Shown here piece by piece: positions 1 to 20,100 of a DNA stretch of 22,214 bases. Position 1 is the first letter of the stretch, and each line of letters begins with the position of its first letter. The position numbers and the translations under genes are program-made. This stretch comes from a virus. The DNA lies in IMG/VR virus record IMGVR_UViG_3300043446_005561, positions 1-22,214 of that record; one strand, given 5' to 3'. The notes beneath the pieces are model-generated. The model was not told the origin of the DNA, searched no databases, and was given only the letters and a program-made list of their open reading frames with translations.

Positions 1-56
1 CATGTTCTATCGGATAATAATAAATGACCTAAATTTATTTGCTTATCTAAATCCAT
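1..56 (-). CDS. 5' end of an unidentified gene, cut by the left edge
   Basis: An ATG at 56-54 overlaps the TAA stop of the large terminase gene as TAATG, and the frame stays open to base 1. The visible residues are MDLDKQINLGHLLLSDRT. Such stop-start overlap suggests translational coupling to gene 17. The upstream sequence has only a poorly placed GGGA, about 12 bases before the ATG, so coupling would be needed. In T4 the gene after 17 is 18 (tail sheath), but these residues do not look like a sheath N-terminus to me. I do not recognise the protein. Eighteen codons is little evidence, so this could be a chance open frame. Confidence 0.45.
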   Translation of the reverse strand, partial: MDLDKQINLGHLLLSDRT

Positions 57-1708
57 TACTGAATATAATCCCACATATATGCCATATCTCCGTATTCGTC
101 AACAAACCATCTATCCCCATCTTCATCAATAAAACTATTTGAATCTGTACCATCGACAATAAACCCAAATGGTGCCATATCTTGTTCTATTTGATTTTTT
201 TGTTCCTCATATAATCTCTTCCTTACGTCTTGATCTGTGAGCTCTTTAAAATAATCCTGTGCAACTAACCAAGCATAAATTACCAAACACATTGCAAGAT
301 CATCATTACAACCTTCTTCCGCTTCAAATGAATTGTGTTTTTGAATAAATGTTGTAAGTTCACTCATAATATCATAGTCATTAAAAAGAAGTTTATTTTC
401 TTCTATCATGGTCTTTAGATTAAGACATCCAACTTTTTTTACTGTTTTGGACATCTTAACGCCAAGTTGAGTTTTTTTACCAGAAAATCCTTGTCCAACT
501 ATTTGTCCAGCTCTCCCCCTCATAGAGCACATGAGGAGATTTGTATATTCTAAGTCATAATGGATAATTGATGCTACCTGATCTCCAACATCATTGACCT
601 CACACAGAATATATGAATTATTATAACTTTTTGCTACATCTACAATAATACTTGGAAAAAGCATTGGTTTAATTTCATTATTTCTATACTTTGCAACTAT
701 TTGATGGGGAAATGTTGTAATATCAACCACTGTAAATGCAGAATAATCATTACCAACACCTCTTGCAACGTCTACAGTTGTTAGATAGTCATGATTTTCT
801 ATAACTTCTTGATAGACATCTAGACCCCCGCTGCTTGTTTTGGGATGATCATAAACAAGAGATCTAAGTTTTGATGGTGCAATAAGAGTATCTACGGATC
901 CTAAAAATTCACATTCAAATTCTACTTTAAATTGAGATTCTGATGTATTTGCTATTGTTTGTTTTTTCCATTCCTCATCTCTGCCCGGAACTTCACTCCA
1001 ATGAACGTCGGTAAATACATATTCATTTTTTCCCTTTTCAGCGTCATGCCACATTCGGTAGAAGTGATTCATACCGTGTGGAGTAGAAACGATTATAACT
1101 TTGGTTTGCTTACCTGAAGTAATCGTAGGATATACTGATGCAAAAAATGAATCTGCAATATGATTTGGGACGAACGCAAATTCGTCCAAAAATAATATAT
1201 TGAATGACATACCACGAACTGCAGAAGCAGAAGTAGAAGCAGCCAAGATTTTACTTCCATTTTCCAGTTCCAGAGAACCTTTGTTCCAAGAAACAATACC
1301 TTGTTGCATCCACTTTGGTAGATTTTCATATGCGGTTTGCAATCTGTCTAATAGTTCTCTTGCAGTCGCTGCTTTGTTTGCCAGAATACCAATGTTTACA
1401 TTATCGTTAAAAACTGCATAATGTAAAAGAAATGCAACCACAGTAGTAGACTTACCAGTCTGTCTGGGCATTTTACAGATATTAAATCTGTGCTTATGGA
1501 AATTGGTAATTAATTTTTCTTGAAAATGATATGGTTTAAATGTCTGTAAACCATGATCTAGGGTCACAATTTTTACATAATTGTTAGCGAAATAAACAGG
1601 ATCGTTCATGCACTTGACAATTTCAAGAACCTGTTCTTCTGTAAATTCGTGAGTAGTATTTGCTTTCTTTAATAAAGGATTACCAAGATATACATCATTA
1701 TTTGGCAT
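56..1708 (-). CDS. 17: Terminase large subunit (packaging ATPase and nuclease), T4 gp17-like
   Basis: This is the motor that translocates DNA into the prohead at the portal and cuts the concatemer. The 550 residues show both expected domains. In the ATPase domain the Walker A motif is MPRQTGKST (residues 80-88), the Walker B motif is ILFLDE (171-176, with D175 and E176), and the coupling motif is STPHG (208-212). In the RNase H-like nuclease domain the acidic triad is D313 in VDVARG, E370 in CEVND, and D469/D470 in NDDLAM. The length is somewhat below the roughly 610 residues of T4 gp17. The last 40 residues form an acidic and aromatic tail ending MWDYIQ. The ATG follows a weak AGGT ribosome site and starts 16 bases after the stop of the 685-residue gene. 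In T4, genes 16 and 17 overlap; here they are separated by that gene. Confidence 0.97.
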   Translation of the reverse strand: MPNNDVYLGNPLLKKANTTHEFTEEQVLEIVKCMNDPVYFANNYVKIVTLDHGLQTFKPYHFQEKLITNFHKHRFNICKMPRQTGKSTTVVAFLLHYAVFNDNVNIGILANKAATARELLDRLQTAYENLPKWMQQGIVSWNKGSLELENGSKILAASTSASAVRGMSFNILFLDEFAFVPNHIADSFFASVYPTITSGKQTKVIIVSTPHGMNHFYRMWHDAEKGKNEYVFTDVHWSEVPGRDEEWKKQTIANTSESQFKVEFECEFLGSVDTLIAPSKLRSLVYDHPKTSSGGLDVYQEVIENHDYLTTVDVARGVGNDYSAFTVVDITTFPHQIVAKYRNNEIKPMLFPSIIVDVAKSYNNSYILCEVNDVGDQVASIIHYDLEYTNLLMCSMRGRAGQIVGQGFSGKKTQLGVKMSKTVKKVGCLNLKTMIEENKLLFNDYDIMSELTTFIQKHNSFEAEEGCNDDLAMCLVIYAWLVAQDYFKELTDQDVRKRLYEEQKNQIEQDMAPFGFIVDGTDSNSFIDEDGDRWFVDEYGDMAYMWDYIQ

Positions 1709-1724
1709 AATAAAGACCTATTAA

Positions 1725-3782
1725 TTAATTACAGTTCCAGCGTTTGCGTGCTGCTTTACCTCTTTCTCCGGTCCAACTTCTAGAGCGACTGCAGAAATTT
1801 CTTCTTCTTTTCCAGTCCGCAGAACCTGGTTTTAATTCTGAAGGAGGTGTAGTAACAGCAGTTTTTAGTTTTGAACCTGGATTCTCTCTGCGATATGCCT
1901 TTACCGCTTCTGGACTTAATCCATCAGTTTTATCTTGACGATTCACTTTCTGCCAATCTTCATCAACTTCAACTTCTTCTCCCATAGGTTTTACATAGTT
2001 TCTATTGGGACCTGGTTTTGCTGAACTCCCACCTTGAGGACCAAATGCTTGAATCAATGGTTGTCCAGGTTGAATTTCCGAAACTGAATGATAAATTACC
2101 TTACTTCCGGGATAAACTTTTTGGAGTTCATCATTAATTTCTTTACGTGTTGGCAGTTTAACCTGAGGGAAAAACATTTTTAATGAATAATATTTTCCTC
2201 TCCAGGTTAAAGTTACTACAACAACATTTCCAGTTTGAGATTGCATTCTTGTGGATTCCTCTACTTGAGATTTAAACCCTTTAATTGGTTCTGGTTTTAT
2301 AAGATCAATTACTTCAGCAAAGGTATTTCCATCGGCATCTTCAATAGTTACATTTTCTTTTTTAACGCAACGATTATATTTTTTACCAAAAAGTTCCTGG
2401 GTTCCTTTTTTCTTATATCCTGACCAACACTTCATTTCATCCACAATTTTATCTACAATTTTTTCTTCTTTTTTGATAGAAGGAAGTTCTGTGGTTGATC
2501 CAAGTTTTCCTGACGCTGCAGATCTTTCTCCTTGAGTAGATCCTTTTACGGCAACGTTTCTAATTTTTTCTCTTTTCTGTGCCTTTTTGTGTACAGATGG
2601 ATCTATAGTAAATCCAACTGATTCTTCCATTTCTCCACTTGAAACATAATCTGCGGCAGTGTCAATATAATCTGCGGCTTTGGTAATTTTTGATTGGACC
2701 CATGCCTCTACGTTACCTTCACCTTTTCCAACCTTCGCTTGTAATCTTTTTGCTGCACTCATTAAAGTTTCTAATTCAGATCTTATCATGGAATATTCAT
2801 GATCTTTTATGGAAACTTTGTCCCATGCCTTTTCTCCATAAGAGCATTCGGACCTTGTTTCTCTTTTATCGCATAAAGGACAAAATCTTTCTTCTTCGTG
2901 CATAGTCTCCTCCGATTTAGTTCCCCAGTTTGCAGCGCCAACTTTACGACATTTTACTAGTGCCCCAGAAGCATATGCACTTGGCCAAACGTCATATCTA
3001 GACTTTACCTTATTATAACAAGCATCTTTTTTGCCACTACCTTTATTTGGTTTGTCTTTTACTTCTTTTAGGTCCATCTCTTCAGTTCTTACGTTAGTTG
3101 GTTTTTCGCCACCAGTTTTTTCTGGTTGGTTTGGATCTAATCTATTTTTTCTTCTTCTTGCTCTTTCCTCTTCTTCATCGGATAAATTTGCAGATATTTT
3201 AGAACTTCCGCATTTTGGTGTAGAAGTTTGACCTGGTTGACGAGCACATGGTTTACCTGCCCATTTTCCGCCCAGCTGAACCCATCCTTTTTTACCATCA
3301 GAGGATTTTGATTTATTAAACCAATCGTGAAGTCCTTCATCTCCAGATTTATTTTCTTCTTTTAATTTTTCTGGTAAAGAAAATAAATCCCAATATCTTG
3401 GTCCATATTTACATTCACTTCTCAATTGAGTTTTTTTGCATTTTGGGCAATATCTTTTCTCATAATCAACATGAACTCCATTCATTGGCGGCATATGAAC
3501 TGGAGAATCTACATCTCCCATTGCAACATCAGCATATTCTTTTACATCTTTAAATTTTTTATGCTCCTTTTTAGCACTCGCTTCCATTTTTTTCAGACGA
3601 GTATAATAATCTGGTATTTCATCTAGATGCTGAAGAGCAATATCCATAGCAAGTTTATGATCTTTAGTATGTTCATGCTCAATAGGTTCGCCCATATCCA
3701 GCTGCTTTTGTATGAAAGAAACATCTAGTCGATGCTTCTTTGCAATTTGCTCAACTGTTTTATGAGGTTTAAGTTTGCCCAT
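1725..3782 (-). CDS. Multi-domain protein of unknown function between the terminase genes (DUF5661/DUF5872/DUF6321-like modules)
   Basis: A 685-residue, Lys/Glu-rich hydrophilic protein with no signal peptide or membrane segment. It reads as a string of small modules. Residues 1-75 resemble DUF5661 (HEHTKDHKLAMDIALQHL). Residues 111-132 hold a Cys motif CPKC...RSECKYG...WD. Residues 147-195 resemble a DUF5872-type segment (GDEGLHDWF...GWVQ...CARQPG). Residues 253-286 contain CYNKVKSRYDVWPSAYASG. A second Cys motif CPLC...RSECSYG...WD lies at 300-321. Residues 335-385 contain AWVQSKITKAADYIDTAADY. Residues 449-476 contain KCWSGYKKKGT...RCVKKE. Residues 517-580 hold a small alpha/beta segment (VVVTLTWRGKYYSLKMFF). 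Residues 622-684 resemble DUF6321 (LSPEAVKAYRRENPGSKL...WNC). Family names are from memory. I have seen such modules in marine T4-like phages and large DNA viruses, with no assigned role. The gene lies between 16 and 17, so a packaging, DNA-binding or internal head role is possible but unproven. Confidence 0.9.
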   Translation of the reverse strand: MGKLKPHKTVEQIAKKHRLDVSFIQKQLDMGEPIEHEHTKDHKLAMDIALQHLDEIPDYYTRLKKMEASAKKEHKKFKDVKEYADVAMGDVDSPVHMPPMNGVHVDYEKRYCPKCKKTQLRSECKYGPRYWDLFSLPEKLKEENKSGDEGLHDWFNKSKSSDGKKGWVQLGGKWAGKPCARQPGQTSTPKCGSSKISANLSDEEEERARRRKNRLDPNQPEKTGGEKPTNVRTEEMDLKEVKDKPNKGSGKKDACYNKVKSRYDVWPSAYASGALVKCRKVGAANWGTKSEETMHEEERFCPLCDKRETRSECSYGEKAWDKVSIKDHEYSMIRSELETLMSAAKRLQAKVGKGEGNVEAWVQSKITKAADYIDTAADYVSSGEMEESVGFTIDPSVHKKAQKREKIRNVAVKGSTQGERSAASGKLGSTTELPSIKKEEKIVDKIVDEMKCWSGYKKKGTQELFGKKYNRCVKKENVTIEDADGNTFAEVIDLIKPEPIKGFKSQVEESTRMQSQTGNVVVVTLTWRGKYYSLKMFFPQVKLPTRKEINDELQKVYPGSKVIYHSVSEIQPGQPLIQAFGPQGGSSAKPGPNRNYVKPMGEEVEVDEDWQKVNRQDKTDGLSPEAVKAYRRENPGSKLKTAVTTPPSELKPGSADWKRRRNFCSRSRSWTGERGKAARKRWNCN

Positions 3783-3804: not shown

Positions 3805-3812
3805 TATTTATT
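3805..3812 (-). promoter_or_regulatory. Late-promoter-like octamer AATAAATA before the multi-domain gene
   Basis: On the minus strand the octamer reads AATAAATA, one mismatch from the T4 late promoter TATAAATA. It contains the TAA stop codon of gene 16 at positions 3-5. It lies 22 bases upstream of the next ATG. A second overlapping ATAAATAA follows in the same AT-rich run, so the exact element is uncertain. Confidence 0.4.
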
Positions 3813-4242
3813 GTTCTAATTGTGCTTGAGATTGTTGCTTAAGAAGTTTTGCTAATTCTGCAGTTGATCCGACAAAAAGAGCGTTATTAACTGTTGTCGG
3901 ACCTTTAATTTTTTCCTCTTCAATATCCTTTAACTTCTTTTGTAAATCCATCAATTTATCTGTTGCATCCGCGACATTTTTTATAAGTTGACCAGCAACT
4001 TCATATGCACGGGGCATTTCACTTTCCTGAGCAAGTTCCAAAATACCATTAATGGCTTCTTGCCCCTTCTCTATTAAAGAGTATAAATTTCCTCTGGTAT
4101 AATCATAATCACTTTTTATATCATTAGAAGAAGATGATATTTTTTCTATTTTTTCAATGACATCACTTTTTTCTACAGGCACTATCTCACTTTCTACATT
4201 GAAAGTTTCATTAAGAGAGTCAAATTTTTTAGACATTTTCAT
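3808..4242 (-). CDS. 16: Terminase small subunit, T4 gp16-like
   Basis: A 144-residue, charged, mostly helical protein placed directly after gene 15, where T4 has gene 16 (164 residues). Small terminases form rings that recognise viral DNA and regulate the gp17 ATPase. The middle and C-terminal parts look helical and coiled-coil-like (LIKNVADATDKLMDLQKK, then LKDIEEEKIKG), which fits ring oligomerisation. The N-terminal KFDSLNETFN is reminiscent of marine T4-like gp16. The first ATG (MKMSKK) begins 5 bases after the gene 15 stop with no Shine-Dalgarno site. The second ATG two codons later, giving MSKKFDSL, is an equally good or better start. Identification rests on gene order and general character more than on sequence signature. 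Confidence 0.75.
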   Translation of the reverse strand: MKMSKKFDSLNETFNVESEIVPVEKSDVIEKIEKISSSSNDIKSDYDYTRGNLYSLIEKGQEAINGILELAQESEMPRAYEVAGQLIKNVADATDKLMDLQKKLKDIEEEKIKGPTTVNNALFVGSTAELAKLLKQQSQAQLEQ

Positions 4243-4247
4243 ACACT

Positions 4248-5249
4248 TTAAAATACTGATCCACTAAATCCAAAATCATCACCATCTTCAATTAGAAGAT
4301 TATCTGCAGAAGTGATTGATTTAACTTCTGCCCCAGATAGATGTGAAGTTATTGTTGTCCCATCTCTACCTCTATTTACAGTGAGCATATTTCCTGATTT
4401 AGCAGTAACAAAAACTTCTTCACCCTCAATATCTAAGTAAGTGTTTGCTGTTATTGTAGATGCGTCATTGACAGTGACTAAGGTATCTTCGATACTAATA
4501 TCTTTAGATAAATTAGTTATTATTGTGCCCGTGTAATTTTTAATCGCTCTTGGTTCTGCTGAATATACAATTTCTCTTGATGGTGAATTTGTAGTATCTC
4601 CAGCAATATAACCAATAGAAGTTTTCTTGATAATATCTTTCGTTGCAGAAGAAACAGGGCCAAACAGATAAGTCTTTGCAGTAAATCTTAGCGTGTATAT
4701 GAGAACTCTTCTAGTTGTGAAATTACCCTCATAATCATCTTGCATTGTAATATTTTCAAGAACCACCGGTATGTCTCTTTTTTCATTAATTGCATCAACT
4801 AGCTCTACTGACATTGTATATGCCGGCTGGAAATATGGTAAAATTTGCTCTAAAATTTGCAAGGCATCATCATTAAGTTTGCACATTAGACTTAATTCAA
4901 ATTGCATATTATAGGGAACTGGAAGATAAACCTTTTTAGTCTCAGTTCCGTCAACCGATGATTTTGCTGTAAATGTTTGAGTTGTAGTTGCTTTTCTAGA
5001 AGGATCATAAGTCAATCCAGTAAATTCAAATGACATTCTTGGTAATGTAATTTGAACCGGTTTATTTAAATCTGGAGATTGCTCTAACCTTGCAAGAAAT
5101 TTTTGAGTGGGACCGTATGCAAGAGGAACCTTTATAATACTCTTTACATTACCATTATTATCCGTATGTTTGATGTCAATTTCATTAAACAAAGAACCAA
5201 AAGCAATTATAGTTCTTTTTAAAATTTCGTGATAAAAATATTCAAACAT
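4248..5249 (-). CDS. 15: Tail completion / proximal sheath stabiliser protein, T4 gp15-like
   Basis: This hexameric terminator caps the finished tail tube and sheath and docks onto the gp13-gp14 neck. The 333 residues match T4 gp15 over the first two thirds: MFEYFYHE at the start, then FNEIDIKH, LPRMSFEFTGL, MQFELSLMCKL, and LQILEQILPYFQPAY, which is nearly the T4 sequence. T4 gp15 has about 272 residues. The excess is a C-terminal extension (about 250-310) with the pattern VTVNDAS...YLDIEGEEVFV...LTVNRGRDGTTITSH, a beta-rich cassette also found in two other proteins here. The ATG has a good AAGGA site 7 bases upstream. The gene follows a 40-base gap that carries a late-promoter-like octamer. 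Confidence 0.93.
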   Translation of the reverse strand: MFEYFYHEILKRTIIAFGSLFNEIDIKHTDNNGNVKSIIKVPLAYGPTQKFLARLEQSPDLNKPVQITLPRMSFEFTGLTYDPSRKATTTQTFTAKSSVDGTETKKVYLPVPYNMQFELSLMCKLNDDALQILEQILPYFQPAYTMSVELVDAINEKRDIPVVLENITMQDDYEGNFTTRRVLIYTLRFTAKTYLFGPVSSATKDIIKKTSIGYIAGDTTNSPSREIVYSAEPRAIKNYTGTIITNLSKDISIEDTLVTVNDASTITANTYLDIEGEEVFVTAKSGNMLTVNRGRDGTTITSHLSGAEVKSITSADNLLIEDGDDFGFSGSVF

Positions 5250-5286: not shown

Positions 5287-5294
5287 TATTTATG
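5287..5294 (-). promoter_or_regulatory. Late-promoter-like octamer CATAAATA before gene 15
   Basis: The minus strand reads CATAAATA, one mismatch from the T4 late consensus TATAAATA. It contains the TAA stop codon of gene 14 at its positions 3-5. It ends 37 bases before the gene 15 ATG, leaving room for a short leader that includes the ribosome site. Confidence 0.5.
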
Positions 5295-6696
5295 GGATTC
5301 CAAATGGGTTAGATTCGCTGAAATCAATAATTTTATCTGCTTCTTCTTCAATTTCTTCATTATTTGCAAATCCGTCTTTAACAGCAAAAAATTCGACTTT
5401 TCTTAAGTAATGAGAAGCACTGGATGAAGTTCCAACTATATTTTCTCCCGAAATAAACTCCCCATTTACTTGTGATACCTCTAAAATGTTTGTTGTGGAG
5501 TTCCAAGATCTTACTCTTGCAGTTACTCCACTTTGAGAACCTGTTACAACTTCATTAAATATAAAGTTGCCAAAAGAATTGAATAGGGGATTACCTATTA
5601 CAATCGTTGGTGGAACAGTATAACCCAGTCCAGCGTTTGTTATTCTAATTTGGGTTATTGATCCCGCAGCAGAAACAACTGCAGTAGCTGCCGCAGAAAC
5701 TGAAGAAATCCCACTAAATGTTATAGATGGTGAGTTAACGTATCCGGATCCAGAATTAGTTATAGTAATAATTCCTACTATTCCATCCCCTATAAGCGCA
5801 GTCGCAGTAGCTCCTTTTCCACCTCCCCCAATGAATCTTACTTTTGGTGCAACAGTATATCCATATCCTGGGTTAATTATGTCTACACTTTGAACAGATT
5901 GTGCTGATGGATTCGTATTATCGTTACATACAACAATTCCAGATATCATCTTTGCAATAGCAGATGAAGTTGCACCACCATTTGGAGCAGAAGATATACC
6001 AACAGTTGGGACAGAAGTATAACCACCACCTCTATTTGTGACTGTTATAGATCTGACACCTCCATTAACAAGGCTAGTAATTGCAGATGCAGTTACTCCA
6101 AATCCTACCATTAAAAGTTTTTGTATATTTCCTATTGGTACAGATTCTTGACCACCACTTCCACTTATATTGTCATCAATATCTTCAATTCCAGTATCAA
6201 TAATCTCATCTTCATATCTGAATAATTCGCATCTTAATTCGTAAGTATATAATCCCTGAAGTTGATAAAAAGGTTTTTCATGTTCTACATATTTAATCTC
6301 AAATAAACGATCTCCTAATGGAAAATAAATTAAATCCCCTTCTTTTGGTCTTGTAGATAATTTAATATTTGGTTGATTTGTAATTAATGGTGAAATATAA
6401 GTTTTAAATCTTTCTCTAGAAATAGTTAAACTTACTTCATTGAGAGCTTGTATTCCAAATTTTGATAAAATTGTTGGATTATCATTATAACCTTCAAAAT
6501 TATTTAAATATGCTTCAATTGGATATGCACTATTAAATACAGATTCTATAACTTCCTTAATTACCTTTTTTTCGGTAATGTATTTCCTAGGTAAATAATA
6601 AACTTCAACACCATACATCCTCAACTGCTCATTAATTAAATCTTGTATGAGACTTTGTTCTGTTTTTGAACCTTGAAGAAAAAATGGGTTAAGCAT
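5290..6696 (-). CDS. 14: Neck protein, T4 gp14-like, with a large inserted beta-repeat region
   Basis: gp14 joins gp13 at the neck to close the filled head and bind the tail. Residues 20-165 match the T4 core: RMYGVEVYYLPRKYI (27-41), EAYLNNFEGY (61-70), LSKFGIQALNEVSLTI (78-92), RPKEGDLIYFPLGDRLFEI (116-134), and KPFYQL. The C-terminus SESNPFGIP resembles the SSPF-containing end of T4 gp14. T4 gp14 has about 256 residues and this has 468. The surplus is an insertion at about 180-435 carrying four Gly-Tyr turn repeats (NRGGGYTSVP, NPGYGYTVAP, NSGSGYVNSP, NAGLGYTVPP), then a cassette with GSQSGVTARV. The ATG has an AGGG site 6 bases upstream, inside the end of gene 13. The gap to gene 13 is 3 bases. 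Confidence 0.93.
   Translation of the reverse strand: MLNPFFLQGSKTEQSLIQDLINEQLRMYGVEVYYLPRKYITEKKVIKEVIESVFNSAYPIEAYLNNFEGYNDNPTILSKFGIQALNEVSLTISRERFKTYISPLITNQPNIKLSTRPKEGDLIYFPLGDRLFEIKYVEHEKPFYQLQGLYTYELRCELFRYEDEIIDTGIEDIDDNISGSGGQESVPIGNIQKLLMVGFGVTASAITSLVNGGVRSITVTNRGGGYTSVPTVGISSAPNGGATSSAIAKMISGIVVCNDNTNPSAQSVQSVDIINPGYGYTVAPKVRFIGGGGKGATATALIGDGIVGIITITNSGSGYVNSPSITFSGISSVSAAATAVVSAAGSITQIRITNAGLGYTVPPTIVIGNPLFNSFGNFIFNEVVTGSQSGVTARVRSWNSTTNILEVSQVNGEFISGENIVGTSSSASHYLRKVEFFAVKDGFANNEEIEEEADKIIDFSESNPFGIP
5602..6036 (-). repeat. Four protein-level Gly-Tyr turn repeats inside gene 14
   Basis: Residues 221-365 of gp14 hold four copies of the pattern N-x-G-x-G-Y-x(3)-P-x-[IV], about 40-55 residues apart. 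Each is preceded by a strand such as ITVT, VDII, ITIT or IRIT. The DNA of the copies has diverged, so this is an old protein repeat rather than a recent DNA duplication. Confidence 0.8.
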
Positions 6697-7978: not shown

Positions 7979-10900
7979 TTATGCAAGGGTTATTACTCTT
8001 AGATTTTTAACTCTAGGTGGATACGCTTGATTTGTAGAAGTCAGTATCAATTTAATTCTATAGAATCTAAATGATGGCAGTTGATCTGCAGTAAAATTAT
8101 ATTCTTTAAATTGTAAATTTTGAGACTCAAACCCAAGAATTGTAGAAGGTTGAATATATGTATCTGGTAGACCATCACTATTTGAAAAATCTATGATTTG
8201 CTTTCTAACATCTAGGTTATTATATCCCGGGAAAGGAGTAAATATAGGATTGAAGTTTTGAGATTCTCCTATAGCATATAATACTCTAATGTCAGAAAAA
8301 TTATTGATATGGGCATCTAAAATAATTTTAATAGAAGATGCCGAATTTTCCAATCCTATTTCTTTAGAAATATATTGGAAAGAAGATGGATCTGTTCCAA
8401 TACTATTCACTCTACTGTCAGTAGCATAGTTTTGAATTACTTTATTAACTCTATTGGAAGTTAAAATAGCACTCATTCTTTGCGTATCAATAACTGGAGT
8501 TATTCTTGAGTCAGATGAATTCAAGAATAATCTTAAATTCATTGATTTATTCCCGGGAAGTTCAGTTAAGTTTACATCTTCATTGACTTTAGATGCTATA
8601 AGTCTTGGACTATCAAAGTAAGTTGTTTTATTTAAAGAAATAGCTTCAAATCCCTGATCTATAAATGGAATCTCATTTCCACTAATACTAGAACCACTAA
8701 TAGTTCTAATCTCAGAGTTGATATTTGTACCCTGAACAGTTGTATTTTGTATTGATAAGTTAATTAGTTCAAATGGAATGTTTTGAGTTGCCTTAACATT
8801 GAATCCACCGGCAGATTTTGTTTGATTGAAATATAATTCAGGGTATCCAGATCCAGTTGTTCTATCTACTCCATCTGCATTCATTTGTATTTTTATATAA
8901 TATGAATCAAAATTCAAAGGATCTGCTAATGTAACATCTTTAAGATAGTGGGTCTTATTAATTCTCTGCAGAGAAACTCCACCTAACTCATATTTGTATA
9001 CTGGACTTCCAGATAAATGAGTGGTTGAAGATTGAGTTAAATTATTAAAATATGTTGGATCTATATAACCAATTCTTGTAATATTGTTTAAAGATCCAGA
9101 ACTAACTGATTTATATTCAAAGATCTCATTTCCAATTAAAGCATAACCTGGATTAGTAGTTGCAACTCCAACATTTTCAAAGGATGCAAAACTAGAAGAA
9201 TTTTCAATTAAGATAGATGATGTGGAATCATAGTTGTAATCTGAAGTTAGTTTTGTGGGTGAAATATCAGATTCAACCCCAGAAATTTTAACATAGTTAT
9301 CTTCAAAGTACATTCCATGATTCTTATGATTTACTAGAATATGGAGACCATCGGACTCTACATCAATACTAGAAATTTGTACATTTCCCCCAGAAGTACT
9401 ATTCAATGTAGTAGTTATTCCTGATGAATTGGAATATACTACAGTTTTTGCTACTCCAGCAACAGAGAAATTGCCCTGAACATTATCTAATATTAATTGA
9501 GTAGTACTTCCAATTGAAGTTAGAGAGAATAATGCCCCTCTACCAACAGTAATATTTCCTACCGAAGTTATTCCTAATACATCTCCAACCTTGTATCCAT
9601 TTCCTCCAGAAGATATAGTAGCTGCTATAGCAACTCCATTTGATATTGTAACCTCTGCAATAGCATCCTTTCCAGATCCAGTCAATGTTGATAGTTTGAC
9701 ATTTTGGAAAGTCAATGCTCCAGATGAAGGAGTATATCCTATACCAGGATTTATGACTTGAAGAGTTCCTGTAGATTGTCCTGCACTGCCGACATAATTT
9801 GCACTAGCATTAGTCCCCTGCTGGAAAACTGTATTACCAAGAATTAAACCAGCGTCATTTAATGAGGAAGATATGCCAATTCTTATTCGTTTTGAATTTA
9901 AAACCAATGAATTTGGAAGTAGAGTTGCTACTTGCGAATTTCCAGGGCTCAACTCTGGACTGTATAACTCTAGTCTTCCGGAACTTAAGAAGTTAGCTCT
10001 ATATAGAGTAAACTTCAGGTCTTCCCATTGGCTTGCTTCCCAAGTTGAAGCATTTTGTGACTTAAATAGAGATCCAAGATATGGTTGATTTACATACGAT
10101 TGAGTTAGAATATCAACTTCTCCAGACCTAGAAATAAAGACATTATATTTGTTGGAATTTGAACCAACAATTATGGCATATTCTTTACCACCTTCCAAGT
10201 ATACCGGAGATTTGAATGTGAAAATGGTTGGAATTGATCCATCTTCTGAAGTTCTAACTCTCTCTGGTTCTAAATTGATTTCTGAAAATGGAACTACGGT
10301 TTGGGTTGGATAACCGCCCTGCATAGTTCTTATTTGTAATCTAACCGGAATTCCGGCATCATCAGTAGACTTAAAGAAAAGTTCGCATTTTGTTAAGAAT
10401 ATGCCAGTTTCTTCTTGGACTAAGAATGACTGTGCAAGAGGATCCCACCATGGGCATCCATACCAGTTAGTATACTTAGAAACAACTTCTGTACTTACTA
10501 ATTGATTTCCAGTAGTTCTTGATACATCTTCTGACTGAGTTTCTTGTCTTTGTTCAATTTTGGCATTTCTTGTAGAAATAATATCTTCCTGGACAGTTTC
10601 AATAGTTCCACTTGAAATGAATTTTTCTTCAGAAATAGTAGAAGCTAAGTTTTTATCATTTATTGAGTTGTTTATTAATCTGAAAATTTTAGTTCCATTT
10701 TCAAATCTAGGATTAACTGCAAAATTAGGATCAGGAATATAAAAACTTCCTATCAGAGAAGTATAAACATCTGATATTAGTCTAACATTACTAATCGTTG
10801 CTATCGCACCGCTAGTTTTTCCAACTAAAGTCATTCCAGATTGCACCCATCCACTAAACTCTCCTTCTGTTTGAGTAGATAATGAAAATGTATCTACGTT

Positions 10901-13900
10901 TAAAATAGTACTTGTTGAAGAATATGTAGAAGGTAAAGGTTGGCTTGTATATGGATTTAGTGGGTATGTTGAAGATGGGGAATTATATGGACCTTCTTTA
11001 TGATTTGATTGAGCAACTCTAAAACTAATTTTTGGCGATCCCTGATTATTAATTGGTTCTGAAACAGAAGTAGATTTTAATTCTCCTATTATAGTTTCTC
11101 CAATTTCAAAAACACCAGATACCATACTAATTTCTAATAATTTTGGAGTACAGTATTTTGTTACATCAATGCCATCAAAGAATGCATAAACTTGAGTTAA
11201 TGGTTTTACATTATTTGAAGTGAACTGGATATTACGAGATCTCAAATATTGGATTAAATCTCTGCTTACAACTCTATCCCCTAAAGAAGTCTGATCATAC
11301 TGTTCGGATACAAATGTAGTTGTTCCTGTCCTTGTCTGTACTCCTGTTTCTTTTACTTCTTGGTAAGTATCTTGAGTAACTGTTCTTGTAGTGTACCAAC
11401 CACCATAATATCCATAATATCCATAATATCCTCCCCAGTATCCATAATATCCATAATATCCTCTCCAATTATACCCATAATATCCATAGTACCCATAGTA
11501 CCCACGATATGCATATGATGTGTTATATTGGACAGTTTCAGTAACTTCTTTGCCCGTCCAAGTAGTCTCCCAAGCCCCCCATACTGTAGGCGAATAACCA
11601 GTCTGTGGATCAACGTTAAATTGCTCTGAAGCAACTGCCAATACCTGAGCGTAATTTCCATCAACATTAGTTATTTTTGGATCTAATCTGACAGTATCGA
11701 TCCAAGTATCGGAAGCAGGAGAAAGCTCAATATTTCCCTGCCAAAAACTGATTACAAATGGGGTAACGTTTTCTGTTCTAGTTGCAAAAGATTGTTTTAA
11801 CCATTCAACCTCTGAATAATCTAAAGTTATTAAATCTCCAGTTTTCCTAATGTTAGTTCCTTCTGGGGTAATAAATTGATAATCCTGCTGTAAGTTTTGT
11901 ATAGGTCCATGTAATAAATCTACTGAAGTTGTATAGTGCTTTGGTCTTAACTCCTTATTTTTAGGATCTATACTATTTTCAAAAGGTAACCCATTTTCTT
12001 GAGATATTACATTTGTAAAATTATCTACAAAAAATCCAGATTTAAACCTATCTAATCCGTCAGAATCTGTGATTGATAAGTTAGCAGTGCTTGATTCAAG
12101 AATACTTAATGAAGTATAGTACTCAAGATTTTTAATTCTATCCTCAAGATTTTTAATATCCACCATTCTATATCTTTTATGATTAAGAAATTGAATGGAT
12201 GCTTGGGAAATATCAAACAAATATGGGGGTAAAGTTACTGTAGCTATTTCTAATGCATCATCTGCCGAAATTGGTTTCTCTGGTTTTTCGGCTGGGACTC
12301 CATATTTAACTTGGAAAGTGCCATCTCTACTTACAAAAATCCTATCAATTCTTCCAAGATAGTATGAAAATGTAGCTATAATTGCTTCATCTGAAGCAAG
12401 AATATTTGCCGCAGAATTTCCGGATTGATTAAAAGTTCTTCCATAAAACTCAAATGGAGACCTTGAACTTTCAATGCCCACATAATTAGAAACTCTGGGT
12501 CTAATGTCAATTATATCACAATTTCTAATTGAATCGACAGTTTGGATATCTTTTTTATAATCAAATCCACTATATGAAGATATAGTTGTAATATCTCCAT
12601 TGTCTGAAGATTCATAGTAAGCACTAGAAAAATATACTTTTATTTTTCTAGTTGGAGATGAAGCAGATGGAATTCTGTTAATTGACCCATAACCATAAAA
12701 GGTTCCTTTTTGTCCATTATCAAACTTAAAGTTTGAAGAAATATTGGAACATGTTACTCCAATCGAAGTTACAACTGCTTGTAAATTTGACTCTCTAAAA
12801 GATACTGTTTCCCCTTCTTGGAGGTTATTTTCATTTAGTGGAATAAAGGATATTTGACTATCCGTTATTTGCTCTGCATACAGTCCTATTGCTCCACTTA
12901 TTTGTCCAACAAATGTTTCTCCAACAATTAAATCGCTAGTCTTTGTTGTTGGTCCATTTATAGAAGAAAGAATAATTTTAGGACATGATGGATCATTGAG
13001 ATCTCTTGACTCATAAATCCCATGGACATTAATTATATCTGGAACGCCTAAAGATATATTTTCATCTTGAACTCTGGTTCCGTATGGATAGTTACCATAA
13101 TACAATCCATCATTTAAAGTAGAAGCGCCAATGCCAGAAGATGAATTATTTGATTTATTAATTACTATGGTAGAGATTCTTCTCTTTAATTTATTCTTTG
13201 CTTTTGGTTTTATCTTTCTTAAAGTAGTTATTAATGTTGCAGGTCCATTTGTCGTCAAATTATAAATTTGTAGTTGTGTTGATCCGTCAACAAAATCAAA
13301 TTTATCTTCAGTTAGTGGCTCAAATCCACCGTCAGCGCGAATTAAAGTATACCTTTCTTCATCAAATGGTAAAAATGTCTCATTTTGTCCAGCAGAAACT
13401 GGGGTAGAAAGTTGATTTGAAGTAATTGTAACATCAAAGGTTTTTCTAATTGTCAGTTGTGCATTGGTTAAATCAACAGATGCAATGTTGGGTTTAGGTA
13501 AAGTTGTATATAAAGTATCGTCTATAGAACCTGTCAACATTGTGTTTAAGACAGTAAAATCCGTTACATTAATAGAGCTAGAAGGTAATCCCCCCTCATT
13601 AATTCCTACTACTGTAGCGATTCCACTAATAGTTACAAAAGTCAGACCAACCCCAACTACTCTTGAATATACGGGAGTTGAAAATGAACTATTACTATAC
13701 TTTACAATATCGCCCGCCTTTAAAAGATTTCCTGGAAAATTAGTGTTTGTGCTGGTTACTGTACTAATTCCTCCAGAGTTTCCACTAATTGTTGCAATAC
13801 CAACTGATATATAATTTGATAGTATAGAATTAGCGTTAAATGTTTTTGCTGATCCAACTATACCATATACTGATTTTACATCAGAAATAGAATAAGAAGT

Positions 13901-15520
13901 TATTGCTGTAGCTACTCTATTGTTGTCAATGCCATCAATTGCAAATGACTCAAAAGGTATGAAATTACCACTCTTTTGATATAATGTAATTGTGCTACCA
14001 TTTGTTACAGAGTTCTTAAGGAAAGCTGTTGCCCCACTACTTTTCCCTTTAATAAATGATGGAACTTTTAGAGTAATTGGTTCATTTAAAGTTATTTCTG
14101 TAGTTGTTTGTAAATCATATAATGAAATATTCCAACGATTTAAGTTTGAATTTGTTAAATATGAACCAGATTCTAACTTAAAGTCATATACCCTAGCAAC
14201 ACCAATTTCCTTACCAGATGCAGTATTTGGGGAAGATCCTACCCTTTGATCTCTTAGACTTAAAACATACGTGTTACCTATCCCTATAACTGGATATCCA
14301 TTAACTGTATCTAAAACTAATGTTGACCCGGTATTATATACTATTGATCTATCATTTAAAGTTGCAGTAGTTCTAGGCTTATCTGAATCTAGAAATACGG
14401 GAGAGACTGTTTCTACTTCATATCCCCTAACAAATGCTTTTCCTGGGGAAATTTGGTATACTGCAAGACTTTCTGATGGGGTTGATCCATTATAAGTAAA
14501 TTGATTTTCATTAAATATGCCACGATTTCCAAGATTATCATTTAGAGATTCTTTTACATTTAAATCAAAAGGAGTTACATAATAATCTCCAGATTCTGCA
14601 TAAGTTCTTCTTGCAAGTTCATCTCTTATCAAACTATAATCTGTTGTAATTCTATTGGTTGAAATTACACCATTTTTAATTGTTGCGAGTTCTATAAAAT
14701 TATTATCATTGAAATCAGTTAGGTCTTTTTTGAATAAAGAACATGTAATTTTTAATCTATCTGCTCCAGGAGACCCATAGTTATTAAATCCTTGCGAATT
14801 ATCATTTAAGTTTTCGTCAATATCAGAATTAACAATTTCTTCATTAATAAAAAGACCAACTCTATAGTTAGGAGAGTTTGAATACTGATCAAGTAAGAGA
14901 GTTTCTGTATTTACTAAAACAAAGTGACCACGTATAAAATAAACACCTTCAGAAATAGAAAATGCAGATCCTACTGATGTTGAATTGCTTGCTAAAGTAA
15001 TACCAAAAGGAGATCCTGCAGTAATTAAACTATTTCCTAACAGACCAGATGTGATGTCTATGCTTGATGAGAGATTTTCCCCATCAAAAAAAGCAACGGT
15101 AGAATTATTTTGAGTACTTGACCCCAAATAATTTACATATAGTGTGATATGTTCTCTTTCAGATTCACTTGATAGTAAAACTTTCTCAACTATTGCAGTA
15201 ACTCCAGAAGTTTGTCCGGTAATTTTAGAACCAACCAATTGAGATGCATATGCATCCAAAGGAACCCCTAAATATGAATTATTAAGTTCTACTGCATAAT
15301 AAAATTGATTATATGTAGTATTTCCGGGGATAACTTTAGATCCTTCTTTAAAAAAGTGCTGACCAAATTTTTCAATTTGATTTTGTAGAATTGATTGTAA
15401 AGTTGTTAATTCTCTTGCCTGAACTGGATAACCAGGTTTAAAAAGAACACTATAATAGTCATTATTTGCATCAAAATCATCAAAATATGGTGATACATTA
15501 AGGTTGGTTATTTGAGACAT
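7979..15520 (-). CDS. Giant virion structural protein (2513 residues), DUF4815-type N-terminus, probable baseplate/tail-periphery component
   Basis: Residues 1-70 (NVSPYFDDFDANNDYYSVLF, then GYPVQARELTTLQSILQNQI and FFKEGSKVIPG) match the DUF4815 start seen in marine T4-like phage structural proteins. The body is beta-rich. A tyrosine-glycine run at about 1337-1373 is coded by 9-bp repeats. It is followed by TGTTTFVSEQ...SLGDRVVSRDLIQYLRSRNI and QVYAFFDGIDVTKYC. Around 1692 begins DPLAQSFLVQEETGIFLTK, then LQIRTMQGGYPT and LGSLFKSQNASTW (about 1820), which I recall as conserved in these phages. Gly-Tyr turn copies lie near 1925 and 1975. The gene stands between 8 and 13, where T4 has 9, 10, 11, 12 and wac, so it may do part of the work of those baseplate, fibre-attachment or whisker proteins. 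The start lies 6 bases after the gene 8 stop with no Shine-Dalgarno site. The exact role is inferred. Confidence 0.9.
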   Translation of the reverse strand: MSQITNLNVSPYFDDFDANNDYYSVLFKPGYPVQARELTTLQSILQNQIEKFGQHFFKEGSKVIPGNTTYNQFYYAVELNNSYLGVPLDAYASQLVGSKITGQTSGVTAIVEKVLLSSESEREHITLYVNYLGSSTQNNSTVAFFDGENLSSSIDITSGLLGNSLITAGSPFGITLASNSTSVGSAFSISEGVYFIRGHFVLVNTETLLLDQYSNSPNYRVGLFINEEIVNSDIDENLNDNSQGFNNYGSPGADRLKITCSLFKKDLTDFNDNNFIELATIKNGVISTNRITTDYSLIRDELARRTYAESGDYYVTPFDLNVKESLNDNLGNRGIFNENQFTYNGSTPSESLAVYQISPGKAFVRGYEVETVSPVFLDSDKPRTTATLNDRSIVYNTGSTLVLDTVNGYPVIGIGNTYVLSLRDQRVGSSPNTASGKEIGVARVYDFKLESGSYLTNSNLNRWNISLYDLQTTTEITLNEPITLKVPSFIKGKSSGATAFLKNSVTNGSTITLYQKSGNFIPFESFAIDGIDNNRVATAITSYSISDVKSVYGIVGSAKTFNANSILSNYISVGIATISGNSGGISTVTSTNTNFPGNLLKAGDIVKYSNSSFSTPVYSRVVGVGLTFVTISGIATVVGINEGGLPSSSINVTDFTVLNTMLTGSIDDTLYTTLPKPNIASVDLTNAQLTIRKTFDVTITSNQLSTPVSAGQNETFLPFDEERYTLIRADGGFEPLTEDKFDFVDGSTQLQIYNLTTNGPATLITTLRKIKPKAKNKLKRRISTIVINKSNNSSSGIGASTLNDGLYYGNYPYGTRVQDENISLGVPDIINVHGIYESRDLNDPSCPKIILSSINGPTTKTSDLIVGETFVGQISGAIGLYAEQITDSQISFIPLNENNLQEGETVSFRESNLQAVVTSIGVTCSNISSNFKFDNGQKGTFYGYGSINRIPSASSPTRKIKVYFSSAYYESSDNGDITTISSYSGFDYKKDIQTVDSIRNCDIIDIRPRVSNYVGIESSRSPFEFYGRTFNQSGNSAANILASDEAIIATFSYYLGRIDRIFVSRDGTFQVKYGVPAEKPEKPISADDALEIATVTLPPYLFDISQASIQFLNHKRYRMVDIKNLEDRIKNLEYYTSLSILESSTANLSITDSDGLDRFKSGFFVDNFTNVISQENGLPFENSIDPKNKELRPKHYTTSVDLLHGPIQNLQQDYQFITPEGTNIRKTGDLITLDYSEVEWLKQSFATRTENVTPFVISFWQGNIELSPASDTWIDTVRLDPKITNVDGNYAQVLAVASEQFNVDPQTGYSPTVWGAWETTWTGKEVTETVQYNTSYAYRGYYGYYGYYGYNWRGYYGYYGYWGGYYGYYGYYGGWYTTRTVTQDTYQEVKETGVQTRTGTTTFVSEQYDQTSLGDRVVSRDLIQYLRSRNIQFTSNNVKPLTQVYAFFDGIDVTKYCTPKLLEISMVSGVFEIGETIIGELKSTSVSEPINNQGSPKISFRVAQSNHKEGPYNSPSSTYPLNPYTSQPLPSTYSSTSTILNVDTFSLSTQTEGEFSGWVQSGMTLVGKTSGAIATISNVRLISDVYTSLIGSFYIPDPNFAVNPRFENGTKIFRLINNSINDKNLASTISEEKFISSGTIETVQEDIISTRNAKIEQRQETQSEDVSRTTGNQLVSTEVVSKYTNWYGCPWWDPLAQSFLVQEETGIFLTKCELFFKSTDDAGIPVRLQIRTMQGGYPTQTVVPFSEINLEPERVRTSEDGSIPTIFTFKSPVYLEGGKEYAIIVGSNSNKYNVFISRSGEVDILTQSYVNQPYLGSLFKSQNASTWEASQWEDLKFTLYRANFLSSGRLELYSPELSPGNSQVATLLPNSLVLNSKRIRIGISSSLNDAGLILGNTVFQQGTNASANYVGSAGQSTGTLQVINPGIGYTPSSGALTFQNVKLSTLTGSGKDAIAEVTISNGVAIAATISSGGNGYKVGDVLGITSVGNITVGRGALFSLTSIGSTTQLILDNVQGNFSVAGVAKTVVYSNSSGITTTLNSTSGGNVQISSIDVESDGLHILVNHKNHGMYFEDNYVKISGVESDISPTKLTSDYNYDSTSSILIENSSSFASFENVGVATTNPGYALIGNEIFEYKSVSSGSLNNITRIGYIDPTYFNNLTQSSTTHLSGSPVYKYELGGVSLQRINKTHYLKDVTLADPLNFDSYYIKIQMNADGVDRTTGSGYPELYFNQTKSAGGFNVKATQNIPFELINLSIQNTTVQGTNINSEIRTISGSSISGNEIPFIDQGFEAISLNKTTYFDSPRLIASKVNEDVNLTELPGNKSMNLRLFLNSSDSRITPVIDTQRMSAILTSNRVNKVIQNYATDSRVNSIGTDPSSFQYISKEIGLENSASSIKIILDAHINNFSDIRVLYAIGESQNFNPIFTPFPGYNNLDVRKQIIDFSNSDGLPDTYIQPSTILGFESQNLQFKEYNFTADQLPSFRFYRIKLILTSTNQAYPPRVKNLRVITLA
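11403..11510 (-). repeat. 9-bp tandem repeats encoding Gly-Tyr-Tyr runs
   Basis: The plus-strand unit ccataatat occurs exactly at 11403, 11412, 11421, 11442, 11451 and 11475. Variants ccatagtac (11484, 11493) and ccacgatat (11502) extend the array, and short spacers interrupt it. On the coding strand each unit adds Gly-Tyr-Tyr in frame, giving about 36 residues of Gly, Tyr, Trp, Arg and Asn. Gain or loss of a unit keeps the reading frame. Confidence 0.9.
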
Positions 15521-17105: not shown

Positions 17106-20100
17106 AGGTGTAATTTAAATATTTTAGTGGAACTGATCTATGAATAATAGTTCCAGTAGAAATTCCAGAATAACCATTTGTTGTGTATGAGTTATACGAA
17201 GTTTCTTTAGATCTATATTTCAACATAATTTTACCCCAACTATAATTTCCATAATATCCACTATTACCTAATCCGGTTAGACCATTATATCCAGAAACGC
17301 TCACAGTAACTCTAGCAACATATGTTACCCCCTGCCCAACTACGTTGGTTGTTGCCACAGATACAGAAGCAACTTGATATACTCCATCAATGAAACTTCT
17401 TCCAACCCCTATTACAGAACCAGAAGAATTTAATGCAGTTAACCCCTTTCCAACGTTTGAATCTGATATTACAAAATAGTATCCTGTTTGAATTCCACTT
17501 AATGTAGTAATTCCCGTAATAGAACCATCTCTCAAATATGAATTTTTTGGAATTACAAGATCAAAGACTATTCCTGTTGATGCTATACCAACTGAAGTTG
17601 TTGATATACCACTTATAAATCCAAAATCGCCCTCATAAGTTAAAACGACATTTTGCTCTTTTTGTGTTGATGGTGGTTCTATTAGAACTTCTGGTCTTGA
17701 AGTTTGTGAATATCCAACAACAGATCCAGAAACAACAATAGAAGTCACTATTCCAGAAGTAATATAAGAAATTGCAGATGCGCTTGTAGTTCCAACTCCA
17801 ATTGGATTTTGTATCGATACATTAGGTGGAGTGAGATATCCACGTCCTCCATTTACTATATTGATACTTGAAATCGTACCTGCAGCGGATACAGTAGCAG
17901 TGGCACTCGCAGAAACTTTCGCATCTTGAGAAACAAAAGTTATATTCTTTTGGAAGTTTAATGATACATTATTTTCGTTGATTGGATTGAAGAATGGTCT
18001 TATATTATCAACAAAAACAATTGTCGATCCAACACCAACTGGACTTATTAAATATGCTAAAGGAGTAATTATTGGTTCATATAGGGATCTATTTTTATTT
18101 ACTGGAAGTTCATTAATAATTTTATCTTCAGTTTGTCTACACCAAACTATAGGTCTTCTGAGGGATTCATCTGATGTGTTTCCTGGACCAAAATATGGGT
18201 TAGTTTCAACCGTGTCTAATGATAAAATATCAGTAACATATCTTGCGTCCTCAAGTAAAGAAGGAGATTGTCCAATAAATGAATCATATGTTAATGTTAG
18301 GTCATCACCTATTTTTACTGTTTCTATTATATTTCTGAATATAACATCAACTCCTTCACCACTTCCTTTATAGAATAAAATTTTACACGTATCTTCTGGT
18401 TTTGGAGCTTCAGTAAACCTAATTTTACTTCCACCATTAAAAATGTAGGAATCTCCAGGGATCTGTAGTATGTCATTTATAAAAACTAAAAGATTATATT
18501 GTATATCAATTAGAGATCCTTTCTTTGCATAGATTGAAATTGATTCGCCAAGATATAAAAGTGGGAAGACAACTCTTCTACTATTGAATAAAGTTTCAAT
18601 CTTATCTAAAGGTTGAATTTCTCCAATTGACCAACCAGTAAACTTATCAGTAAATGTTTCTTGTACACTAATTTGAAACTCATTAAATACTGAATTCGAA
18701 ACTGTTGGTATGCCTGATACCCCACTCGTAGGTAATGTTAATATGTCTCCAACTTCATATCCATATCCAAAATTCTTAATTTCAAAGGAAATTACACTGG
18801 ATCCTTGACCAACAACAATATCAATTGTTGCTTGAGTTCCTATTCCAATGGACGGTGATGATACGCTATAAATTAAAGGAATATCGGAATATGATATTGG
18901 ATTATCTATGACAACAATAGGAGGATTACTTGTAGTGTATCCTATTCCTGGATTTGTTATAGCGATACTTACAACGTTACCATTAATTATTGAAGCGATG
19001 CCAATAAATTCAATACTATTTGATTCAACTGAAGAGGTTGTGACACCAACTCTTATAGGTACTGTATTAATTCCACTAAGAGATTGAATATATGACCTAT
19101 AACCAGAACCACTGTTTCCGATACTTATTGCGGAAATAGTCCCTGCTGAAGAAACTATAGCGGTCCCTCCAGCACATACTAATGGTTGATAACCAAAACC
19201 TTCAGTTGATCCTACAGAAACTATTATTCCACCGGATGGGAAATCAGAGGTATTAATATCCGATGCAATCGAAGTTGCAGATCCAACAAAATTAACTGAT
19301 ATTACCCCACCTGATTCTGATAAAGTATAATTGCTATTTAATCCAGGTCCTTGGAAAATGTCATTTATTAATAGTATTGCATTTTCTTGGGAAATATCTT
19401 CAACATTTGATCCATTCTCTTTTAAATCAAATATTTTATTAATACCATCAAAATCCTTTGAAATATCATCGAAAACGCTATTTTTATAATAAGACTCATT
19501 TGTTCCCTCACTAATTCCAGATCTCATAAAGGTTCTTCCATGGAAAGTAGATCCTGTAGAAATTCCTACCCAATCTCTTTCATCTGGTGGGTTTGTTGTT
19601 GTTCCTAGAGGAATATTCCCATATGGAGCATCTACAAAGTTCAATATATTATCAACAATGTTATAGTTTCCAACTATCTTTGTTACTACAGTTTGATTGG
19701 TATGGTCTTCAACTTCAGTTCCCATCCAAGGGCGCATAACCCTAACAGAATTAGTGCCTCCCACTCCAATATATTCTATTTTCATTATCTCATTATTAAT
19801 TTTAATCAAATCACCTATGAAGAAGTTAGAAACATTATCCAAATATAATACATCATCTTCTATTAGGAAATCTGAAGATAATTTTGTCGTAGATGATGTT
19901 GATACTAACGGAGACTGTATTACATTATCGATAGAAATTAAAGCTTTTGAATTTTGTTTGATGGATGTAAATAAATGACTAGATCCAATTCCCACAGAAG
20001 TAATATTTAATGCCTTTGGTATTTCCTTCAAGGCGTCTTCGGCGTTCCTTGCTAATTTTATTGTATTTTCATCTATTTTTATTACATATACCTCTGATGG

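Follow-up and report, generated by a model that had tools for sequence, protein, structure and literature searches.

Between the small and large terminase genes of an IMG/VR virus record, we characterized a gene encoding a 685-residue array of small modules, which is probably a prohead-core or internal head protein of T4-like cyanophages (Kyanoviridae), cleaved by a gp21-type protease and ejected with the DNA. The mostly basic array protein would be produced late, together with the products of the head genes, and would enter the prohead core. A gp21-type protease would then probably cleave it at hydrophobic-x-Glu sites located between modules, and the resulting products would stay with the packaged DNA before being ejected into the host. 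The protein would thus work like the internal proteins IPI-III of T4, with its cargo strung as a shuffled array ending in DUF6321. T4-like cyanophages are among the most abundant marine phages, and an internal protein class seems to be previously undescribed for them.

The window, i.e. the whole stretch of DNA analysed, covers 22,214 bases, and its minus-strand gene content includes gp13, gp14, gp15, the small terminase subunit (TerS/gp16), the array gene and the large terminase subunit (TerL/gp17). Starting with ATG, the array gene (1725..3782, minus strand) encodes a protein with a net charge of +29 and a pI of 9.3, confirming the ~ 2 kb, 685-residue gene described between the terminase genes in an earlier note on this DNA. 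According to ORF positions, TerL (56..1708, minus; Pfam Terminase_6N/6C) lies downstream of the array gene at a distance of 17 bp, and TerS (3808..4242, minus; phrog_445, E 5e-56) upstream of it at a distance of 26 bp. The contrast previously drawn with T4 is right, because the T4 terminase genes overlap (gene 16 ends at 96688 and gene 17 starts at 96672 in the T4 record). Elsewhere in the window, gp15 (4248-5249, minus) and gp14 (5290-6696, minus) carry additional C-terminal stretches past their T4-like core that resemble tail-fibre or structural repeat PHROGs, and a 2,513-aa protein (7979-15520, minus) contains a GYYGYYGY-rich stretch around 11350-11670.

The array gene belongs to a conserved family and is no private insertion of the window phage. 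It corresponds to the cyanophage family "T4-LIKE GC: 119" (T4-GC 119), found between gp16 and gp17 in annotated genomes, and to phrog_727 (E 1.5e-89), so that its presentation as special to this phage does not hold. The gp16-gp17 interval was already described as a variable hotspot by Sullivan et al. 2010, with credit to Millard 2009, and in the accessible sections of that paper T4-GC 119 is recorded as hypothetical, with neither a proposed function nor a targeting signal (PMC3037559). Using the window protein as a tblastn query, 458 phage records were matched, for the most part cyanophages and including the T4-GC 119 members S-SM2, S-SM1 and Syn19, while relatives were encoded in 581/585 of the IMG/VR pattern matches. 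The order TerS-array-TerL is kept in two locus sets despite the hotspot: on one strand in nearly all loci of the close set, with an array-TerL spacing of usually 16-20 bp, and in the distant set (78 loci) with TerS upstream in 49/49 and TerL downstream in 58/58, counted where present. Host-like cassettes (petE, PTOX, gnd, zwf) nevertheless intervene between the array and gp17 in S-SM1, Syn19 and Syn9.

Alignment of relatives delineated nine modules, in agreement with the seven to nine initially proposed; all coordinates given below are on the minus strand. M1 (residues 1-80; 3543..3782), conserved in 48/48 aligned members, significantly matches DUF5661 at residues 11-67 (50.8 bits against a Pfam gathering cut-off of 27, E 2e-13). 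From the same alignment, two C..C.......C knuckles were recognized, M2a (residues 108-134; 3381..3461), which is an optional copy, and M2b (residues 299-322; 2817..2888). The DUF5872-like M3 (residues 150-234; 3081..3335) was named on marginal grounds, with no Pfam DUF5872 match in the window protein and a single one among 48 relatives (E 0.015), yet the stretch clearly recurs as a module in PHROGs 727, 3477 and 12753. M4 (CYxKVK..WPSAYASGALVKCRK, residues 252-288; 2919..3029) is recurrent and without a Pfam name; M5 (residues 327-383; 2634..2804), delineated by alignment and structure prediction, is a helical module with KITKAADYIDTAADY; and M6 (CWxGYkkkG...C, residues 451-474; 2361..2432) is again recurrent. 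M7 (residues 511-578; 2049..2252), predicted as beta-beta-alpha-beta, is homologous by profile comparison to a capsid-targeted protein encoded after gp20 (hhalign E 4.5e-6). Finally, the invariant C-terminal module M8 (residues 609-685; 1728..1958) corresponds to DUF6321: the window protein itself scores 0.2 bit below the Pfam cut-off (residues 616-673, 28.3 against 28.5 bits, E 3e-6), and 45/48 of its relatives match (E <= 0.1), the best at 1.2e-22. The KITKAADY helix and the KCWSGYKKKGT motif singled out by the earlier note are both real recurrent modules, and the CY.KVK..WPSAYASGALVKCRK motif, the two knuckles and an alpha/beta module likewise recur across relatives. Structure prediction of the full array was of low confidence (pLDDT 53.7) and was left out of the argument. 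The M7 model, with a core pLDDT of about 90, had no significant match among PDB structures, and its resemblances to the RNA polymerase-binding YkzG (E 0.36) and to T7 Gp2 (E 1.1) were discarded as non-significant; a sequence search of the PDB found nothing.

Module profiles run over all fetched loci revealed more than 40 distinct architectures, in which the order of modules differs from phage to phage, with DUF6321 ending the protein (<= 6 aa from the C-terminus) in 162/165 complete members. In the S-SM2 array (L002:5701-7827), a DUF192 domain (COG1430) is inserted at residues 339-441 (Pfam E 4e-24). Single modules are also encoded elsewhere. In T7-like phages (P-SCSP1c, HTVC022P and relatives), a 72-84 aa gene that adjoins the major capsid gene encodes DUF6321 alone; it is placed between the major capsid and tail genes or immediately 5' of the former, and lies beside the podovirus capsid gene in 14/14 HTVC022P-like loci. 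A roseophage has M4 close to its TerL gene, and in a Vibrio phage M1 forms part of a DUF2213 protein encoded beside head genes. As to the large DNA viruses named in the earlier note, the analysis covered one algal virus protein annotated as DUF5872. In S-CREM2, gp160 (M3-M6-M4) adjoins a cytidylyltransferase gene away from 16/17. Two outcomes had been named in advance as refuting the proposed roles: the modules are not one known enzyme family, and, regarding an occurrence elsewhere with no link to packaging, single modules and arrays such as gp160 do lie away from 16/17, where what they share is a tie to the head or virion and not to terminase. The 18 cellular matches of M4 (L346-L363) are all metagenome-assembled genomes from unrelated phyla, including Euryarchaeota, Neomarinimicrobiota and Rickettsiales, and are probably phage contigs binned with cells. 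A second array type, made of other modules, was observed between TerS and TerL of S-SZBM1 (OL473597.1; gene 194, L089:5253-7376), with 707 aa, a charge of +65 and an internal CTS-like TYREFIAEG. Directly downstream of TerS in the same genome, gene 195 encodes an 87-aa protein with a high virion emPAI (2.66) and weak matches to PHROGs without known function.

The association of the modules with capsid-targeting sequences (CTS) would link them to the prohead. In the T4 CTS, residues 4 and 7 target the prohead core, and residues 8 and 10 permit processing by gp21 (PMC9026906); the N-terminus of both IPII and IPIII reads MKTYQEFIAE in the T4 record. Among relatives of the window protein, M0, M4, M6, M7 and M8 were each found directly behind a T4-type CTS (MK[ST]F..F..E). 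The stand-alone M7 protein starts with MKSFKQFISES, which is close to the CTS of the T4 internal proteins, residues M1, K2, F4, F7 and E10 being invariant (n = 17 for F4, F7 and E10), and its gene is located directly 3' of gp20 in 70/72 loci, which is the place of T4 gp67/68, or else beside or directly after the array. DUF6321-only or short genes occupying the array slot share an M[KR]x[FY]xE[FLI]K.L.E N-terminus (MRSYKEFKRLAE, MKSYSELKNLTE, MREYKEFKELCE and similar). Where TerS and the array are separated by a gap of ~ 142 bp, an extra 51-residue gene was found in 22/22 loci (within L011-L087), reading MKTFKQFQE-DWSNKYKKSIDC..., i.e. a CTS followed by a small basic cargo that we named M0 (WSxKYKKSIDC); an example at L016:7846-7998 starts with MKTFKQFQEDWSNKYKKSIDC... 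In the arrays of other phages, this M0 cargo is fused behind VKE, MKE or MEE, hence behind the processing half of the CTS only. Scanning 1.95 million residues returned 83 CTS starts, nearly all on the coding strand and mostly at gene starts, and in a T4 control (99,071 residues) the pattern retrieved, besides IPII and IPIII, only gene 61.1 and a match in Dda that looks like chance. Gene 61.1 of T4 (NC_000866, about 18966-19130, minus) starts with MKTFKEFIKED, a good match to the CTS of IPII and IPIII. The N-terminus of the window protein, MGKLKPHKTVEQIAKKH, holds no CTS, which counts against the internal-protein reading. No publication linking CTS to cyanophages was found in a partial literature collection.

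The prohead protease gp21 of T4 cuts after a hydrophobic-x-Glu motif. Nine candidate sites of this kind (minus strand) punctuate the window protein: VKE after M1 (residues 80-82; 3537..3545), LKE before M3 (140-142; 3357..3365), LKE before M4 (238-240; 3063..3071; present in 96% of 48 members), MHE before M2b (294-296; 2895..2903; 90%), MEE after M5 (385-387; 2622..2630), VDE before M6 (447-449; 2436..2444), an invariant VEE before M7 (507-509; 2256..2264), MGE in the M7-M8 linker (600-602; 1977..1985; 85%) and VDE before M8 (606-608; 1959..1967; 98%). Linkers of the window protein contain [ILVMF]xE in 7/7 cases (shuffle mean 3.8, P 0.007), and only three sites fall inside modules. Within the 12 aa located 5' of a module, the motif was counted against shuffles of the same residues and occurred before M3 in 18/21 cases (4.1 in shuffles), M4 in 28/35 (14.2), M6 in 53/56 (20.4), M7 in 12/12 (4.8) and M8 in 34/42 (12.3), counts that rest on related sequences and in which some motifs may be part of the module itself. 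Glu-rich stretches of other genes, used as a control, displayed no excess (167/324 against 158). Conservation of the Glu did not set candidate sites apart from the remaining linker Glu (no higher, Fisher P 0.38). In the cyanophage major capsid protein, GGMIAE-QPTNA stands where T4 has its FLTE-AEIGG cut, the homologous position being set by eye. The excess of sites before modules is a suggestive pattern, which may point to cleavage.

Charge and virion proteomics of relatives are consistent with an internal location. A net positive charge was calculated for 170/171 proteins with DUF6321, with a median of +5.3 per 100 aa against -3.0 for other genes; as a point against the reading, gp137 of S-CREM2 is acidic (charge -20). 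The S-SCSM1 homolog gp029, a 517-aa protein of the array slot (M2-M3-M4-M6-M2-M7-M8), was deposited as "virion protein" by authors who reported 45 virion proteins by mass spectrometry. Published virion lists also include gp137 (M7-M8, array slot), gp160 and gp136 (array slot, MQTFSMFFSED) of S-CREM2, and S-SZBM1_139 (M6) of S-SZBM1. Among the 208 genes of S-CREM2 (OR473000.1), the five proteins with a CTS-type N-terminus (gp6, gp14, gp15, gp136 and gp154) were all detected in virions (5/5, Fisher P 0.0006), a figure that becomes 3/3 with P about 0.01 when leaving aside gp136 and gp154, by which the pattern was partly shaped. Three of them are enzymes, the SAM hydrolase gp6 (MKDFDSFLEE), the kinase gp14 (VKRFDAFLTE) and the cytidylyltransferase gp154 (MKNFSSFLTEA), and the authors of the S-CREM2 study had already noted these enzymes as virion-associated. 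The cytidylyltransferase of S-SZBM1 (gene 140) starts with MRFRQFIIEA and was likewise detected. As an independent check of the pattern this genome is weak, with 1/5 proteins detected in virions, the others being two small CTS genes and two apparent chance matches. Also encoded between the terminase genes, S-SZBM1_190 ("virion structural protein") was considered as a virion-detected homolog and dropped, being fibre-like and devoid of the modules.

Of the three roles initially proposed, those of an internal head protein and of a protein injected with the DNA are supported by the CTS on the same modules, the head-gene neighbours, the basic charge, the protease-like sites and the virion proteomics of relatives, while only gene position favours a packaging accessory, and a specific contribution to packaging is not supported. 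A function together with gp16/gp17, for instance as a terminase regulator or DNA-end factor, would indeed agree with the strict TerS-TerL position in both locus sets, and DNA binding could be expected of modules that are basic or resemble zinc knuckles. We nevertheless consider this role improbable: position by itself is weak evidence within a known hotspot, the big unrelated cassettes part the array from gp17 in three phages, and modules also occur away from the terminase genes, where their common link is with heads or virions. It is more improbable still that the array is a non-virion early or host-takeover protein that just happens to be located in a late operon. The modules are without Pfam function, and the homologs of S-SM1 (SSM1_115) and Syn9 (gp114) bear no structural label though both virions were analysed, in agreement with such a protein, the missing labels also counting against an internal head protein; the detection of S-SCSM1 and S-CREM2 relatives in virions, the CTS on the same modules and the head-gene neighbourhood in unrelated phages all argue against it.

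A closer competitor also places the array in the head or virion, as a structural or core protein of several domains that stays uncut; its modules would bind DNA, gp22 or the inner shell, and its [ILVMF]xE motifs would reflect ordinary linker composition. The virion detection of gp029, gp137 and gp160 is silent on cleavage, and the solitary M8 that T7-like phages encode beside their capsid gene, as well as M1 inside the DUF2213 protein next to Vibrio phage head genes, would fit such a structural role. We regard it as rather unlikely, since sites before modules exceed shuffles while Glu-rich control stretches do not, and identical cargo exists both in genes of its own with a full CTS and in fusions that retain the processing half alone.

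Beyond the processed internal protein that we favour for the array, a CTS system may operate genome-wide in T4-like cyanophages, covering enzymes and small peptides, with the array as a polyprotein cut into a delivered peptide cocktail; we put this broader proposal forward tentatively, as it could well prove wrong. The CTS-bearing enzymes would be the cytidylyltransferase, the SAM hydrolase and the kinase, and the prohead protease would free Cys- and Trp-containing basic peptides, delivered to each cyanobacterial cell with the DNA. If true, these results would assign a conserved family annotated as "hypothetical", from some of the most abundant marine phages, to a functional class, account for the enzymes repeatedly detected in cyanophage virions, and provide a short sequence signature predicting the cyanophage proteins that enter the host with the DNA. 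Existing virion mass-spectrometry data also become directly testable for cleavage sites.

Several known systems resemble the array to different extents. In phiKZ and SPN3US, many head proteins are cut after x-x-Glu and then ejected according to the literature, a likeness drawn here by description; cleavage in phiKZ takes place at [SA]xE, and arrays of small modules are not known among its cargo. The prohead core proteins gp67/gp68 of T4 share with the stand-alone M7 protein, which has an N-terminal CTS, a place after gp20, a likeness resting on gene position and CTS, whereas M7 is also fused into the array. With IPI, IPII, IPIII and Alt of T4, the array shares basic cargo, which here too would be carried with the DNA. 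The T4 internal proteins hold their cargo behind a 10-residue CTS of the MKTYQEFIAE type with an [IL]xE cut, and related phages swap this cargo freely. By contrast, the array strings up to nine modules in one long gene of the packaging operon, without an N-terminal CTS on the full array, and no similarity was seen between its cargo and that of the T4 internal proteins; we did not class the window protein among them because this defining N-terminal CTS is absent. The closest counterpart is the family that Sullivan et al. 2010 recorded as T4-GC 119 (phrog_727), to which the array gene itself belongs, alike in both slot and modules.
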